NCBI RefSeq assembly: GCF_003583365.1
Contig: NZ_QXED01000003.1
Coordinates: 310,001 to 374,000 of the forward strand
Source: Fibrisoma montanum
GTDB lineage: Bacteria > Bacteroidota > Bacteroidia > Cytophagales > Spirosomataceae
DNA: 64,000 bases
Direction of reading: 5' to 3'
Within the stretch, counting starts at the first letter, position 1, and each line of letters begins with the position of its first letter. Under the pieces are notes generated by a model. The model was not told where the DNA came from, did no database searches, and worked only from the letters and a program-made list of their open reading frames with translations. The translations under genes and the position numbers were made by a program. Shown in pieces: positions 6,573-13,644 of the stretch.

Positions 6573-7304
6573 CTACAACGGCCTTACTTTCAGATTGCGG
6601 TACCAGACCGTACTGCCCCAATCCTGTAAACCAATATGGCCGGCCAGGGTTCCCGAACCAATCGGGGCGGTTTTCAACGGGCTTTTCGCCAGGCGCTGCT
6701 TCCAGTCGGCCGACGTCAGGTCGTGTTCCTGCACCAGAAACCCGTTAATAGATACGGTGAACTGCTTTCCTTTCCGGATTACGTGCACCTGGTTCCATTG
6801 GCCAACCGGAGCCGACTCGCGAAGCCGGGCGTTGGCGACGCCGAAGAAATCGCCGGCCCGGTGCATGTTCTCGGCCGCACCCTCATAGATCGCATCATCG
6901 AGGATTTGTAGCTCCAGGCCGGAGTCGTGCATGTGTTTGTACGTCGGCGATTCGGTGACGAAAAAGAAAATGCCGCTGTTGGCCAGCCGGCTGACTTTCC
7001 AGTCGGCCTTGAATTCAAAATCGCCCGCAAACGAAGCGTTCGTGATGATATCCCCTCCGTCTTTGGCTTTATTTCCTAACCGGACCGGTACGTCCAGCTT
7101 GATGGCCCCCTGTTCTATGCGCCACGCCTTACCAACGCCTTTGCCGAGGTACGCATGCCAGCCGGTCAGGTCTTTACCGTTGAAGAGCAGTTTCCAGCCC
7201 TGCTGCCGCTCCTGGGCCGACAGGGTATTGACGGACTGGGCCTGCGCAGCAAACAGGCTACCTACGATGGCGTAGAAGACGACGAAGCGAACGATGTTAA
7301 TCAT
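6573..7304 (-). CDS. DUF1080 (3-keto-disaccharide hydrolase-like) secreted protein
   Basis: A 243-residue secreted protein. The start at 7304 gives a signal peptide (MINIVRFVVFYAIVGSLFAA). The mature part carries the DUF1080 hallmarks GWKLLFNGKDLTGWHAYLG near its N-terminus and VWYRNLKVRPL at its end, a concanavalin-like beta-sandwich. Some members hydrolyse 3-keto-glycosides; here the substrate is not defined. No sugar gene adjoins it: the next gene upstream is the ABC transporter permease, about 70 nt away on the same strand. Confidence 0.85.
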   Translation of the reverse strand: MINIVRFVVFYAIVGSLFAAQAQSVNTLSAQERQQGWKLLFNGKDLTGWHAYLGKGVGKAWRIEQGAIKLDVPVRLGNKAKDGGDIITNASFAGDFEFKADWKVSRLANSGIFFFVTESPTYKHMHDSGLELQILDDAIYEGAAENMHRAGDFFGVANARLRESAPVGQWNQVHVIRKGKQFTVSINGFLVQEHDLTSADWKQRLAKSPLKTAPIGSGTLAGHIGLQDWGSTVWYRNLKVRPL

Positions 7305-7376
7305 ACGAATAGAGAAGACGGGTATCTGGCATAAAGCGATCCGGGAAAGCAGCCTACTCAATGCTTTGGGGATAAA

Positions 7377-8936
7377 CTAGCCGGTTTGCAGGTAGCGGAC
7401 CAGATCGGAGATGGTACGAATCCCCAGCATTCGGGCCTGCTCCCGGCGCATCATCAGGCAATAGCTGTTGCCAAACCCCAGCGGTTTCAGCCAGGACAAG
7501 CCGTGTTGCCGGCTAAAGGCTGTTTTAACGAACGAATACACCGAATCCGACTGCATGGGAAGCTGCCGCAACGTAGCGGCCGGGGGCTGAAGGATTACCA
7601 GCAGTCCGGTTCCTGTATATTCCGGGTAGAGGTCCAGCGCCCCCGTACGGAGCGCGTCGAAGCAGATCTGCGTGCCGCCAAGTCCCGTACGGGTGGCTAC
7701 CCGAAGGCTGGTTTGCCCTTCAATGAGCTGCCGGTACATCTCGGCCAGGATGTACTGCTCGGTAAACACTTTGGAACCCAGCACGATCGTCGCCGTGCGA
7801 TTGCCGGGCGAGGCTGGATTCCATAAGCCGTTCGCTTTCAAAAAATCACGCGCAATGGTTTCCGGCGATTCGTGGCGGTAGTCAGCCCGGTAGTTAAGCG
7901 TTGTCATGACGGTATCCGTCAGCCTACCCGCCAGCCGATTCAGCACGGCTTCCAGCTCAGGGTGTCGTTTCAGTGTCGCCTGTCGTACCACCGGAGCCGC
8001 ATCGTAGGGCGGAAACGCATGGCGGTCGTCGTCGAGCACGACCAGGTCATACGCCTTGATCCGGCCGTCGGTCGAATAGCCGCTGATGATATCGACCTGT
8101 TTGCGGTGAATGGCCTCATACATCAGGTTCTGGTCGATCAGTCGTGGTGTCAGCTGCAGACCGTACGTCTGCCGGAGGCCCGGATACCCATCGGCTCGTC
8201 CGTAGAATTCGTGCGCAAAGCCGGCCACCAGCCTATCGGACTGTGACGGCAGCAGGTAAAATCCCGACAAAAGTGGCAGCAGGCCTGCAAACACCAGCGC
8301 CCCTACTCGCAGCCGGCGGGCGGGCAGCCGCTGCATCCGGGCCAGCCCCAGATCAAAACCCACCGCCAGCAAAGCCGCCGGTATGGCTCCGGCCAGAATC
8401 ATGTTGACGTTGCTGAGGGCAATCCCCCCGAAAATAAACTCCCCCAGTCCACCGGCCGCTACGTAGGCCGCCAGCGTGGCCACTCCCACGTTAATGACGG
8501 TAGCCGTCCGGATGCCCGCAAACAGTACCGGCAGGGCCAGCGGCAGTTCAACGTTGACCAAAATCTGCCGGTCGGTCATGCCAACACCTCGGGCGGCATC
8601 CCGCACGGCCGGACTTACTTCCTGAATACCGACGTAGGTATTGCGGATGATAGGCAGCAGGGCGTACAGAAACAGGGCTACCAGGGCGGGCCCAACGCCA
8701 ATACCCAGCAGAGGAATCAGAAAGCCCAGCAAGGCCACACTCGGCACGGTTTGCAGCACCCCGGCCACACCCAGCACCCCCGACGCCAGCCGGGGACGAC
8801 CCGCGATCAGAATCCCGAGGGGTACGCCGACCAGCAACGCCAGCAACAGCGAAATAAACGTCAGGCCGATGTGGGTAATCGTTTGTTCGAGTAGTTTATC
8901 GGCCTGCTCGCGCACGAACGTAAAGAAATCTGCCAT
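7377..8936 (-). CDS. Osmoprotectant-type ABC transporter permease fused to a circularly permuted substrate-binding domain
   Basis: A 519-residue fusion for uptake of a quaternary amine or similar osmolyte. Residues 1-200 are an OpuCB-like permease (TFISLLLALLVGVPLG, EVSPAVRDAARGVGM). A further membrane helix (about 211-230) leads to a periplasmic OpuCC-like domain. That domain is in swapped order: the half usually found second (AGFAHEF, SGYSTDGRIKAYDLVVLDDD, FPPYDAAP; residues 236-372) comes first, and the half usually found first (IVLGSKVFTEQYILAEM, GLGGTQICFDAL, DLYPEYTGTG; 383-515) follows. The start at 8936 (MADFFTFVREQ) lies 16 nt after the ATPase stop, so the two form an operon. Confidence 0.9.
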   Translation of the reverse strand: MADFFTFVREQADKLLEQTITHIGLTFISLLLALLVGVPLGILIAGRPRLASGVLGVAGVLQTVPSVALLGFLIPLLGIGVGPALVALFLYALLPIIRNTYVGIQEVSPAVRDAARGVGMTDRQILVNVELPLALPVLFAGIRTATVINVGVATLAAYVAAGGLGEFIFGGIALSNVNMILAGAIPAALLAVGFDLGLARMQRLPARRLRVGALVFAGLLPLLSGFYLLPSQSDRLVAGFAHEFYGRADGYPGLRQTYGLQLTPRLIDQNLMYEAIHRKQVDIISGYSTDGRIKAYDLVVLDDDRHAFPPYDAAPVVRQATLKRHPELEAVLNRLAGRLTDTVMTTLNYRADYRHESPETIARDFLKANGLWNPASPGNRTATIVLGSKVFTEQYILAEMYRQLIEGQTSLRVATRTGLGGTQICFDALRTGALDLYPEYTGTGLLVILQPPAATLRQLPMQSDSVYSFVKTAFSRQHGLSWLKPLGFGNSYCLMMRREQARMLGIRTISDLVRYLQTG

Positions 8937-8952: not shown

Positions 8953-9684
8953 TTACAATAGTCGGTGCGGTGTTTCGTCCAGAAAATCCCGCACAAAGTC
9001 ATTGGCAGGTCGCTGCAGCAACTCATCCGGCAGTCCGATCTGCACGATACGTCCCTGGTCCATGAGGGCAATGCGGTCGGCCAGTTCGAGGGCTTCGCCG
9101 ACATCGTGCGTAACAAGCACGACGGTGGTTTCGCGCAATTCGTTCAGCCCGAATACTTCGCGCCGGACGTGTCGGCGGGTGAAGGGGTCCAGGGCGCCGA
9201 ACGGCTCATCCATAAGCACCACGGGCGGACGGGCCGCTAAAGCCCGGGCCAGTCCGACCCGCTGCCGCTGCCCCCCGCTCAGTTCGGCCGGGTAGCGATT
9301 CAGCATATCGGCGGGCAGCCGGAGCCGGTCGGCCAGCTCGCGCGTGCGCTCCCGAATGGCGGCCTCATTCCAGCCGAGCAGGTTCGGTACGGTTGCTACG
9401 TTCTCGGCTACTGTATAATGCGGAAACAGGCCCCCATCCTGGATAACGTAGCCGATGCTCCGGCGCAGGGTGGGACCATCCTGCTGCCGAACATCAACCC
9501 CATTTACGACGATTGACCCGCTGGTGGGGTCAATCATCCGGTTAATCAGCCGCAGGGTCGTGGTTTTTCCGCTGCCACTGGTGCCCAGCAGCACCAGCGT
9601 TTCGCCGTTGGCTACGGCAAACGATACGTCGTTTACAACCAGCTGGTTACCATACTGTCGGGATACGTTCCGAACGGTGATCAT
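8953..9684 (-). CDS. ABC transporter ATP-binding protein, osmoprotectant (OpuCA/ProV-like) type
   Basis: A 243-residue ATPase that energises the permease fusion downstream. It shows Walker A GTSGSGKTT (about residues 34-42), the Q-loop region IGYVIQDGGLFPHYT, the ABC signature LSGGQRQRVGLARAL, Walker B VVLMDEP and the switch His in VTHDVGEAL. The FPHYTVAENV and TRRHVRREV wording is characteristic of glycine betaine/choline importers. It lacks the C-terminal CBS pair found in OpuCA, so the ionic-strength sensing of that protein is not expected. Confidence 0.9.
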   Translation of the reverse strand: MITVRNVSRQYGNQLVVNDVSFAVANGETLVLLGTSGSGKTTTLRLINRMIDPTSGSIVVNGVDVRQQDGPTLRRSIGYVIQDGGLFPHYTVAENVATVPNLLGWNEAAIRERTRELADRLRLPADMLNRYPAELSGGQRQRVGLARALAARPPVVLMDEPFGALDPFTRRHVRREVFGLNELRETTVVLVTHDVGEALELADRIALMDQGRIVQIGLPDELLQRPANDFVRDFLDETPHRLL

Positions 9685-9983: not shown

Positions 9984-11954
9984 TTACGGTAAAACCTGAA
10001 CTTCAACCAAAGAGTTATCGTAAACCCGGTGCGTGGCCTTCTGAAAATCGGCCGCATCGGCTTTATAGATGTTGTCGACGTATTTCTGCGGGTTGCGGTC
10101 GATGAGCGGGAACCACGTACTCTGCACCTGAATCATCACCCGGTGGCCTTTTTTGAACGTATGCAGCACGTCCTGCAGACGAAAATTTACGTCGGTTACC
10201 TGCCCCGGTGTAAATGGCTCCGGTTTTTCAAAGCTGTTCCGAAACCGGCCCCGCATCACCTCCGACCGCACCATCTGCTGGTAATTGCCGAGCGTAATGT
10301 TTTTGTTCGGCAGGTACGGATGATTGGGTTCGTCGGGCGGATACACATCAATGAGCTTCACGACCCAGTCGGCGTCGGTACCGGTGGTGCTGACTTTCAG
10401 TTTCGCCATAATTTCTCCCCCCAGCGTCAGGTCCTCGGTCAGGGGTTCGGTCTGGAACGTCAGCACGTCGGGCCGGCGCCCCGCAAACCGCTGGTCTTCC
10501 GACATGTAGTTGAACGGTGTAAACCCGAGCGTTGTCGTGATGTCCTCCGTATACGGCACGGGCTTCATCGGGTCGCTGATAAATTCCGAAAAAGCAGCAC
10601 TGCCGGAATTGGCTGTTGACGGATCAGACGTACCCTCTGACCGAGACAACCGGCCATCGCCGGCCAGGCGGAAGGTTAGCGTCCGGGCGTTGGCAGCGGG
10701 CCACTTATCGAAGGTTTTCCATTCTTTGCGACCCGTATCGAAGAGATACGCTTCGGGCAGGCCCGTTTTGCCGTCGCCGGGCCCCTTCAGGAAGTGATTG
10801 AAAAATCGGGCTTCAATGTTCCGCTGGTAGAACGTAGCGATGCTGTCGCCGAAATAGATGTTGCTGTGCAGCGTATGCCCCGTTTCCCGCGACCACCGCC
10901 CGTGTCCGAACGGCCCCATCACGAGCGTGTTATACGTCCCGGCGTTGTTCTTTTCCAGCGTTTTGTACACGTTCAGGGGACCGTACAGGTCTTCGGCATC
11001 GAACCAGCCTCCGACCGTCATCACGGCGTGTTTGACGTTCTTCAGGTGCGGCAGGATAGACCGTTTCTGCCAGAACTCGTCGTAATTCGGATGATTGATC
11101 GTTTCCTGCCAGAAGAAGTTATCGCTGTAGTATTTGTTGGCGTTTTTGAGGGGTCCCAGGTCATACTGCCACTGGAAACCGTCTTTCGACCCCGTGTTGA
11201 TCATTTCCGACGCGAACCAGGCCGTGGTTGTAGGCTTGGGGTGCTGCACGCCAAACACAGGATACGTGAACAGATACGCCTGAATGAAGGCGCCGTTGTG
11301 GTGAAAATCATCGAAGAAGAAATCGGAGACGGGGGCCTGGGGCGACGACGCTTTCAGGGCCGGGTGGGCGTCGGGCAGGGCCGCGGCCGTGTAAAAGCCG
11401 GGGTAGCTGATGCCCCACTGTCCTACCCGACCGTTGTTGAACTTGACGTTTTTCAGCAGCCACTCGATCGTATCGTACGTATCGGAGCTTTCGTCTGGCG
11501 AACCCGCCCCCGTGGACGCAGCCGCTGTGGACACAGCCGCAGCGGACGCTTTCCCTTTCTTCCGGGCGGCCGTGGCTGGTGGATCGGGCAGGTTTGGGGT
11601 CATGTTCGTCCAGGTCCCCTCCGACATGTATCGACCCCGAACATCCTGGTACACAAAGATATACTTATCCTGCTCAAGTGTGGGCGACGGTCCCAGGCGA
11701 TTAGCGTACTGATCAGGACCGTAGGGCGCAATACTATAGCAGGTCCGCTGCATCAGAAACGGGTATTTGTTTGTTTCTGACGCATCCTTCGGCACGTACA
11801 CGATGGTGAACAGCTTCGTGCCGTCGCGCATCGGAATCTGGTGCTCGTATTTCTGATAATTGTCCTTGACGAAGGTATTAACCACCGGATTCGGCTGGGC
11901 CAGCGCCGTCAGGCTCAGCAGCCCGACCAGCAGCGTAAGTAATCGGAAACGCAT
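9984..11954 (-). CDS. CocE/NonD family hydrolase (X-Pro dipeptidyl-peptidase-like)
   Basis: A secreted serine hydrolase of about 656 residues. The ATG at 11954 gives a signal peptide (MRFRLLTLLVGLLSLTALAQ); the open frame continues upstream without coding character. The alpha/beta-hydrolase nucleophile is in WGISYPG, the acid and base regions are GGWFDAEDLYG and GPFGHGRWSRE, and a C-terminal jelly-roll (PepX_C) domain begins near DVLTFQTEPL. Family members cleave X-Pro peptides, acyl esters or glutaryl-cephalosporins, so specificity is open. A low-complexity Ala/Ser insertion (about residues 130-155) interrupts the N-terminal part. Confidence 0.9.
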   Translation of the reverse strand: MRFRLLTLLVGLLSLTALAQPNPVVNTFVKDNYQKYEHQIPMRDGTKLFTIVYVPKDASETNKYPFLMQRTCYSIAPYGPDQYANRLGPSPTLEQDKYIFVYQDVRGRYMSEGTWTNMTPNLPDPPATAARKKGKASAAAVSTAAASTGAGSPDESSDTYDTIEWLLKNVKFNNGRVGQWGISYPGFYTAAALPDAHPALKASSPQAPVSDFFFDDFHHNGAFIQAYLFTYPVFGVQHPKPTTTAWFASEMINTGSKDGFQWQYDLGPLKNANKYYSDNFFWQETINHPNYDEFWQKRSILPHLKNVKHAVMTVGGWFDAEDLYGPLNVYKTLEKNNAGTYNTLVMGPFGHGRWSRETGHTLHSNIYFGDSIATFYQRNIEARFFNHFLKGPGDGKTGLPEAYLFDTGRKEWKTFDKWPAANARTLTFRLAGDGRLSRSEGTSDPSTANSGSAAFSEFISDPMKPVPYTEDITTTLGFTPFNYMSEDQRFAGRRPDVLTFQTEPLTEDLTLGGEIMAKLKVSTTGTDADWVVKLIDVYPPDEPNHPYLPNKNITLGNYQQMVRSEVMRGRFRNSFEKPEPFTPGQVTDVNFRLQDVLHTFKKGHRVMIQVQSTWFPLIDRNPQKYVDNIYKADAADFQKATHRVYDNSLVEVQVLP

Positions 11955-12024
11955 ATCAAACGGGTTATTTTCCGCAAGGTACAATCTGTCCCCGTTTTTT
12001 GCTACGTTCGCCGAACCAATGATT

Positions 12025-13644
12025 CTACTTACAATAGGCCTCCAGCCGTACTTTAAAAACCCACTGCGCTTTATCGAGCAGGTATTCATTTTGCCGGTAC
12101 GGCCAGCTCGCTCCCCCGTCTGTACTGGCCCGCAGGTCGTAGGTCCGGCCCTGCTTCAGCTTATACGATGTTATGCTTCGCTGGGTCCGGGTCAGCGTAA
12201 CCAGTTCGCGCCAGTTATTTTTGCCGGATTCGCTGTATTGCGTCCGTAGCTGGGCGGGCAGAGCGGCTTCGTTCAGCGTCATGCCTTTCGGACACGAAAA
12301 CTGAAAATCCAGCTTCATGGCCGGCGGTACGGGCAGTGTCCCCAGGTTGATCTGTACCGGCGTTACGTCGCAGGAGGTACCCACCGCCGATTCGGCGATC
12401 AGTCCGCTTTTCGATCCCTTGCCCCAGGCATCCGTTTCGTCGAACACCCGCAGTGTCAACCGCCGGTTCCGGGGTTGGGCGGTAATGGGGATCTGAGCCC
12501 CGTCGTTGGCATTGGCATAAAACGTACTGGCCACCTGCCCGGTTACGGCATCTACCACCTCACACCGATAATTGACATCCACGTTCTTTAGTTTACTGCT
12601 TACGCTGAAGATTGGCCCTACCTCACAGATGCTGTCGGCCCAGGCCACCACGTAGGTTCCCGCCGTCAGTACGTCAGCCTGGTATTCCAGTTTCCCAGTC
12701 TGCTGATTCAACACAACGACGCCCGGCTTCTCCTGTCGCCAAAGGCCTGTCAATGCATCAAAACTGAACAGCGGAATAACGTCACCCGCGCGAACGGTTC
12801 GTCCGGCCTGCGGATGCTGCATTGCGGGATTCAGCTCCATCGTCCAGCGCACCGGCTGCGAGAAGCTACGGGCCAGCTGGTATTGTTTGTTATACGCTTC
12901 AATGGTGATCGAACCGGCCAGCGACGAAACACGCATCAGCCCCAGCGATTGCGAACCGGCCGTCAGGGGCATAACGTTCTGCATCAATCCGCCACCCGGC
13001 ACCTGAGCCGTAGCATTGCCGCTGCGGGTATCTGTATGTACCAGACTGATTGCCAGCTCTCCGCCCACGGCCTGCCCGTCGCGGTCGGTTAGCCGGGTCC
13101 CCATCGGCAACGTAAGGCTGGCGTTATCAACCTTTCCCGACTGTGCGGGCGTGGCGAGGGTAAATGTTGTCGTGAGGGAGCCATCCGTTCCGGCGCGACC
13201 GGCCGCAAGTTCTGCCGAAAGCGTGGTGGGCGGCTGGGGTAGGTTTATAAACCGAACCGTACGCACCTGACGATTCAGGCTGTTCATCACGACCGGCTGC
13301 ACTACCGGTAAATAGCCTTCCGATTCAAGAACGACTGTAAACCGCAGGGGCTGCTGCGCGGTGGGCGTCGACTGGGGCGCAGCGGCCAGCAATAGAACGC
13401 CATCCGCGTTGACCTTATAGCGGTTGGTGTTCAGCGTCGTAACCATACGCGAGGCATCCGGTCCGGCCAGCTTCACGCTGATCTGTTTTGGCAGCGGTTT
13501 GCCCGACGGCTCGACTACCCGTAGCTCCACCACACCCTGCGTAATGGGATCTTTAAACCCCAGTTGAACCCCATCAATGGGATTTTTGCAGGCATCCGTC
13601 AGAAAAGGAAGGAGGCACAATACGTACCTTTTTAAGTATTTCAT
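12025..13644 (-). CDS. Large predicted lipoprotein, unknown function
   Basis: About 539 residues. The ATG at 13644 gives MKYLKRYVLCLLPFLTDAC, a signal peptide with an imperfect lipobox. The mature protein looks all-beta, with CarboxypepD_reg-like wording early on (VELRVVEPSGKPLP) and several Ig-like stretches (GTYVVAWADSICEVGP). It probably sits on the cell surface or outer-membrane inner leaflet. No enzymatic motif is visible. A terminator-like hairpin stands just upstream, so it is transcribed separately from lutB. Confidence 0.65.
   Translation of the reverse strand: MKYLKRYVLCLLPFLTDACKNPIDGVQLGFKDPITQGVVELRVVEPSGKPLPKQISVKLAGPDASRMVTTLNTNRYKVNADGVLLLAAAPQSTPTAQQPLRFTVVLESEGYLPVVQPVVMNSLNRQVRTVRFINLPQPPTTLSAELAAGRAGTDGSLTTTFTLATPAQSGKVDNASLTLPMGTRLTDRDGQAVGGELAISLVHTDTRSGNATAQVPGGGLMQNVMPLTAGSQSLGLMRVSSLAGSITIEAYNKQYQLARSFSQPVRWTMELNPAMQHPQAGRTVRAGDVIPLFSFDALTGLWRQEKPGVVVLNQQTGKLEYQADVLTAGTYVVAWADSICEVGPIFSVSSKLKNVDVNYRCEVVDAVTGQVASTFYANANDGAQIPITAQPRNRRLTLRVFDETDAWGKGSKSGLIAESAVGTSCDVTPVQINLGTLPVPPAMKLDFQFSCPKGMTLNEAALPAQLRTQYSESGKNNWRELVTLTRTQRSITSYKLKQGRTYDLRASTDGGASWPYRQNEYLLDKAQWVFKVRLEAYCK

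Follow-up and report, generated by a model that had tools for sequence, protein, structure and literature searches.

The locus and its parts

The window, by which is meant the whole 64,000 nucleotide stretch of the Fibrisoma montanum genome analysed here (contig NZ_QXED01000003.1, positions 310,001 to 374,000), carries on its minus strand a gene running from 8936 to 7377, which encodes 519 amino acids in a single open frame with no internal stop and with the stop codon within these coordinates. An earlier note, made from the letters of the window, had placed the gene correctly at 7377-8936 and had described it as an ABC permease fused to a circularly permuted osmolyte-binding domain; the fusion is borne out, the permease family BPD_transp_1 lying at residues 37-210 with the binding domain after it. 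The features are:

7377..8936, minus strand: whole gene, ABC permease plus circularly permuted OpuAC-family binding domain (one open frame; Pfam BPD_transp_1 and OpuAC)
8322..8936, minus strand: permease domain, residues 1-205 (PF00528 at 37-210)
8253..8321, minus strand: extra helix, residues 206-228 (helix seen in the predicted model)
7821..8234, minus strand: block L2, residues 235-372 (match to EgtUC chain 138-275; lobe limits D1 and D2 as given in the text available of PMC9732360)
7791..7820, minus strand: junction where the former C- and N-termini are joined, residues 373-382 (gap between the two EgtUC matches)
7392..7790, minus strand: block L1, residues 383-515 (383-514 match EgtUC chain 7-134)
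8953..9684, minus strand: partner ABC ATPase, 243 amino acids (PF00005)
6573-7361 and 9984-12089: flanking open reading frames in the window

In the predicted model the permease domain (residues 8-203) superposes on OpuA 7ahd_B with Z 21.7 and 2.3 Å over 196 aligned residues. The helix at 206-228 would be a membrane anchor preceding the binding domain, and in the 57 aligned sequences a spacer of 9-10 residues leads from it to the conserved AGF of lobe 2. Block L2 holds the greater part of lobe 2 together with hinge strand 2 and the C-terminal portion of lobe 1. Block L1 holds the N-terminal portion of lobe 1 together with hinge strand 1 and the initial segment of lobe 2, and ends near TISDL. 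The junction between the blocks is about ten residues long, and in 55 of the 57 aligned sequences the stretch 369-385 is 16 or 17 residues long.

The stop codon of the ATPase gene lies 16 bases ahead of the permease start, and the best NCBIfam match of its product is the ProV subfamily, under the cut-off; no CBS domain was seen among its Pfam matches to E 0.01. Among the 80 loci of relatives, 71 have a homologue of the ATPase, scored in 69 cases as upstream on the same strand. The Fibrisoma ATPase is short: counted from its Walker A GKTT, 205 residues remain, where the median for the 71 relatives is 279, and the eight shortest relatives' ATPases shown (199-206 residues from Walker A) all come from Fibrisoma or Spirosoma loci.

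Swapped halves and the position of the cut

The reversal of the two halves within one intact frame, as the earlier note had read it, is found by two kinds of sequence comparison. With phmmer against EgtUC (9egi_A), query residues 235-372 pair with chain 138-275 (i-E 2.8e-35) and query residues 383-514 with chain 7-134 (4.7e-21); in Pfam the best OpuAC stretch, 235-367, corresponds to profile 114-256, and a whole-genome profile scan matched OpuAC profile positions 114-257 before 1-113, an order other than the profile's own. These half-to-half matches are far above chance and the swapped order is real. At 210.6 bits against a curated cut-off of 21.2 the domain belongs to the OpuAC family (PF04069), and its 121.6 bits for OsmF (NF049931) lie below that family's curated cut-off of 400 bits.

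Where exactly the chain has been cut can be read on the EgtU numbering, which is the chain index plus 229 (checked by K13 = K242, F64 = F293 and Y112 = Y341, in agreement with the paper). The lobes of EgtU are given as D1 = 233-331 plus 445-506 and D2 = 341-432, with the linker between them (PMC9732360). The new ends map to EgtU 363-367 and so lie 22-26 residues inside D2, that is lobe 2, and not at the inter-lobe hinge where the cut had been thought to fall, the linker being earlier, between 331 and 341. Because the cut is this far inside lobe 2, both inter-lobe strands (by the EgtU map at about residues 483-491 and 301-312) stay continuous and covalent, and the altered hinge that had been proposed finds no support. 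A shift of the tether to the second lobe does follow, in that the chain now enters the binding domain through lobe 2.

Predicted fold and the likeness to OpuAC

AlphaFold2 with 57 sequences returned a full-length model with pLDDT 88.0 and pTM 0.76, and a model of the binding domain alone with pLDDT 90.3 and pTM 0.87, in which the permuted halves form a single two-lobed domain, as the reading in the earlier note requires. A VIA-align search with the latter placed four B. subtilis OpuAC entries on top, all collinear, with Z 18.2-19.6 over 240-245 residues and rmsd 3.8-4.4 Å, the best row (2b4m_A) relating model 4-285 to chain 11-272 with 242 aligned, Z 19.6 and 3.8 Å. The rows after OpuAC are other two-lobed proteins with Z 9.6 or less; EgtUC, AfProX and the isolated L. 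lactis OpuAC lie outside the best 50 rows, which is not evidence of their absence. Foldseek agrees on OpuAC; its alignments to EgtUC, AfProX and OpuCC-type chains extend over no more than 133-147 columns, with identities of 34-46%. The model thus matches OpuAC collinearly in both searches, and EgtUC and AfProX by halves in Foldseek, and the swapped halves are predicted to rebuild one two-lobed domain, in an order already seen in OpuAC.

The B. subtilis OpuAC structures (2b4l, 2b4m, 3chg and 5nxx) thus share the linear lobe order and have nearly the same ends. They differ in other respects: identity over the structural match is 12-14%, the ligand is held in a Trp prism where the Fibrisoma protein has a Tyr cage, and OpuAC is lipid-tethered to the membrane and not permease-fused (PMC2861598). 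A circular permutation among betaine-binding proteins is already in print, since CPSARST (PMC2395249, 2008) lists such relations among 2b4l, 1r9l and 1sw1.

A search with the whole model gives as its top row the L. lactis OpuA 7ahh_A (11-513 to 88-534, 377 aligned, Z 23.7, 5.1 Å), so that part of the L. lactis OpuA binding domain also aligns in order; the permuted-domain profile has a weak hit to L. lactis OpuA (E 0.042, profile 46-140 to chain 152-244), which would mean the conventional order. Residue numbers would suggest that the B. subtilis and L. lactis OpuAC are mutually permuted; this is at odds with the published comparison and no claim is made of it. The two proteins are reported to be 44% identical and superposable at 0.98 Å (PMC2861598).

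Occurrence and origin of the permuted order

Within the family a match was obtained in 106 of 222 genomes. All but one of these, 105 in number, run in the order of the permuted protein, one of them from residue 58 on and one with an in-frame stop; the exception, G118, keeps the normal block order. A phylum sample of 392 genomes, each at least 90% complete and four of them shared with the family sample, gave matches in 90: 23 permuted, 34 with the order L1-L2-permease (26 of them read as single open reading frames, the remaining ones assigned from coordinates), and another 33 which, among the matches listed, have weak permease matches. At the level of named loci, all 80 that were kept out of 178 have the permuted order, and they span Fibrisoma, Spirosoma, Larkinella, Hymenobacter, Pedobacter, Mucilaginibacter, Chryseobacterium and Flavobacterium together with metagenome-assembled genomes. 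That an assembly or frameshift artefact exchanged the two halves is a practically negligible prospect given the recurrence of one order at this scale with a conserved pocket, and an artefact was rejected on the prevalence of the swapped order across family, phylum and named loci.

In-frame stops were seen in the permuted copies G112:C3:133105-134691 and G301:C1:109237-110775 (TGA and TAA) and in a conventional copy, L146 of G118 (TAA); these copies possibly represent decay or sequencing error.

Other arrangements of the same blocks occur. The conventional binding domain sits on the N-terminal end of the permease in 28 open reading frames (L133-L139, L147-L165, L143 and L170). The permease-L1-L2 fusion, which is the EgtU arrangement, was met in five open reading frames, in this survey only on plasmids of other phyla. 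Outside the phylum no permuted order was present in the 12 plasmid records examined (40 of 792 records listed, with matches in 3 or 4 pieces), and one plasmid record with 60-80% identity lies outside the records listed. None of the solved PDB chains matched by sequence has the permuted order; by best stretch, 26 of 27 PDB binding-protein sequences pair the first block with the second half of the chain, and one pairs the second block with the first half. None of the titles listed by literature searches, among open-licence PMC papers, tells of a permuted F-III domain fused to a permease, which is weak evidence. A duplicated domain is the usual intermediate of a permutation, and no open reading frame in the fetched loci has more than one L1 or L2 block.

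In a concatenated tree of 63 representatives the 24 permuted ones form one clade (UFBoot 99). FastTree recovers this clade from the concatenated and the binding-domain alignments (0.994 and 0.888) and does not recover it from the permease alone, where one must go up to a clade of 55 of the 63 tips to include all 24 permuted ones. A single permutation event in a Bacteroidota lineage is the simplest reading, with the root and the sister group of the clade not settled by the trees. The low identity to OpuAC suggests further that this event may have been separate from the one in OpuAC.

The converse can be argued, namely that the permuted order is ancestral and held in common with B. subtilis OpuAC, in which case it would be the conventional F-III proteins that arose by permutation. 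Shared linear topology and nearly identical ends speak for it, and yet identity to OpuAC is 14%, whereas for conventional F-III proteins it is 34-46% across the half that matches, a search to E 10 with the permuted-domain profile gives no B. subtilis OpuAC, and the permuted representatives sit as one clade among conventional ones, with the reservations on root and permease tree already given; on balance an ancestral permuted order seems improbable. As for how unusual the order is, the earlier expectation of an exception stands only in part, because the order is the norm in a large Bacteroidota clade and occurs in B. subtilis OpuAC as well, though at that 14% identity.

The binding pocket

Pocket residues were placed by the EgtU map and counted over the 57 aligned sequences. 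E243, R247, D249, Y287, Y311, T422, Y440, N490 and Y492 are each kept in 57 of 57, T443 in 55 and K389 in 53. An F-III cage with its Asn base is present, EgtU Y341, Y419, Y443, F/Y293 and N339 corresponding to Y492, Y287, Y311, Y440 and N490, and K389, T443 and R247 correspond to K242, T296 and R379, which in EgtU hold the ligand carboxylate (PMC9732360).

The EgtU specificity positions are another matter. G244 and F293 of EgtU are F391 and Y440 here in all 57 aligned sequences, so the EgtU pair is lacking; among 24 wider permuted representatives 22 have F and 2 have Q at the first position, the second being Y in 24, and all 28 L1-L2-permease relatives have F and Y. Losses of affinity in EgtU are reported as about 100-fold for G244F and 500-fold for E375Q, and a table shows about 10-fold for F293Y (PMC9732360); given the G244F and F293Y costs, binding of ergothioneine could be weak, or glycine betaine or choline may be the ligand instead. 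The Glu E375, which contacts the ligand imidazole in EgtU (PMC9732360), is E243 here, and a Glu is found there in 24/24 permuted, 27/28 L1-L2-permease, 5/5 permease-L1-L2 and 3/6 separate-gene representatives.

EgtU (EgtUBC) of Streptococcus pneumoniae and its relatives is similar in being a single chain of permease and binding domain with an ATPase partner (PMC9732360), features that the Fibrisoma gene and its neighbour share; it also gives the best PDB sequence matches, with the same carboxylate residues and the same cage except for Y440 in place of F293. It differs in its conventional lobe order, in being tethered by lobe 1, and in the two specificity residues. The L1-L2-permease fusions of the same phylum have the same three blocks, a permease 43-57% identical where aligned and, with few exceptions, the same cage and carboxylate residues, and differ in that the binding domain is N-terminal and unpermuted.

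Neighbouring and co-occurring ergothioneine genes

In 39 of 80 loci the permuted gene has homologues of both egtB and egtD as neighbours (by BLAST clusters, in flanks fetched to at most 3 kb); in the other 41 the pair was not found within such flanks. One cluster representative of each was annotated, EgtB scoring 549 bits (cut-off 360) and EgtD 288 bits (cut-off 290.9). Examples of such neighbours are L102:868-2049 and L110:5695-6678, the 39 loci falling between L067 and L111. An FAD/NAD(P) oxidoreductase accompanies the gene in 28 of the 80 (e.g. L087:601-2016) and a class V aminotransferase homologue in 19 (e.g. L089:6703-7542, minus strand), and these neighbourhoods are apparently ergothioneine clusters of Bacteroidota. 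On a Liquorilactobacillus plasmid (L140:1482-4496) an NAD(P)/FAD-dependent oxidoreductase comes after a conventional fusion with its ATPase, which recalls the Bacteroidota neighbour. F. montanum itself, the source of the window, has egtB and egtD above cut-off and adjoining each other on another contig.

Across genomes of the family an egtD homologue is found in 100 of 105 with the permuted gene against 18 of 117 others, with no egtD match found in five permuted genomes. In the phylum sample, after six weak matches were dropped, egtD is found in 23/23 permuted and 32/34 L1-L2-permease genomes and in 80 of 335 with neither fused architecture. For 15 of the 23 it is no more than 6 kb from the permuted gene. 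Many of the egtD matches score slightly below the curated cut-off, the genomes above it numbering 66/222 in the family, 113/392 in the phylum and 17/23 in permuted phylum genomes; one of 14 control genomes has a sub-threshold match. All these are genome counts and not phylogenetically independent events. The co-occurrence of the transporter with an egtD homologue, and the frequent egtB-egtD adjacency, are new here and a more useful lead than the permutation, and they make the 'osmolyte-binding' function first given to the domain doubtful.

A probable permuted single-chain importer

The gene is best read, and we think this probable, as a permuted single-chain ABC importer of the EgtU/OpuC type, likely to serve ergothioneine or a related betaine. 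It would supply the membrane and binding parts of the importer, the circularly permuted binding domain being fused to the C-terminal end of the permease, and would act in import as a homodimer with the neighbouring ATPase. The chain would pass from the membrane into lobe 2 and on to lobe 1, through the joined old termini, and back across to end in lobe 2. With the aromatic cage and the two crossings of the hinge preserved, the domain should open and close around a trimethylammonium ligand, probably ergothioneine, hercynine or a similar betaine, as its relatives do, although its tether is on lobe 2 and not on lobe 1. A symmetric permease dimer may well tolerate a tether on either lobe, because a binding domain can dock on it in two poses that a turn of 180 degrees interconverts. 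Similarly a cut after the strand-helix past the first crossing would regenerate the type II topology with the lobes exchanged, and may be tolerated because the lobes of type II binding proteins are pseudo-symmetric, the argument drawing on the general type II strand order.

The same permuted importer could instead serve ordinary osmoprotectant uptake (glycine betaine, choline or carnitine), the egt link then reflecting shared ancestry or chance. The F (or Q) and Y at the specificity positions, shared with 28 of 28 L1-L2-permease relatives, fit that idea, as does the set K389, T443 and R247, the equivalents of the carboxylate-holding residues of EgtU. However the egtD adjacency (39/80 loci, 15/23 phylum genomes) and the 23/23 co-occurrence are against it, as is the lack of a CBS domain among the ATPase matches; the retained E375 equivalent (24/24 permuted against 3/6 separate-gene) counts only weakly, the glycine betaine binder AfProX having an analogous Glu (PMC9732360). 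Plain osmoprotectant uptake is on these grounds rather unlikely, and the ergothioneine-linked importer is preferred.

More tentatively, and at somewhat less than an even chance, permutation at the pseudo-twofold point may have happened more than once, in the OpuAC lineage and independently in the F-III lineage, with Bacteroidota using L1-L2-permease and permease-L2-L1 for one job, the recovery of ergothioneine or a precursor alongside their own biosynthesis. An ergothioneine-linked importer across Bacteroidota is pointed to, where SpEgtU homologues are described as nearly exclusively in Firmicutes (PMC9732360). The same three blocks, with a similar pocket, occur in three linear orders and form a natural matched set with which one can ask how the tether and the lobe of attachment affect substrate delivery in single-chain ABC importers. 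Tethering has been raised before as a possible reason for permutation, by the authors of work on Tp0684 (MglB-2) of Treponema pallidum, likewise a natural circular permutant among binding proteins and membrane-tethered; it differs in being a lipoprotein of the Type I (cluster B) sugar-binding fold, in which the permutation adds a fourth crossing (PMC4990184).
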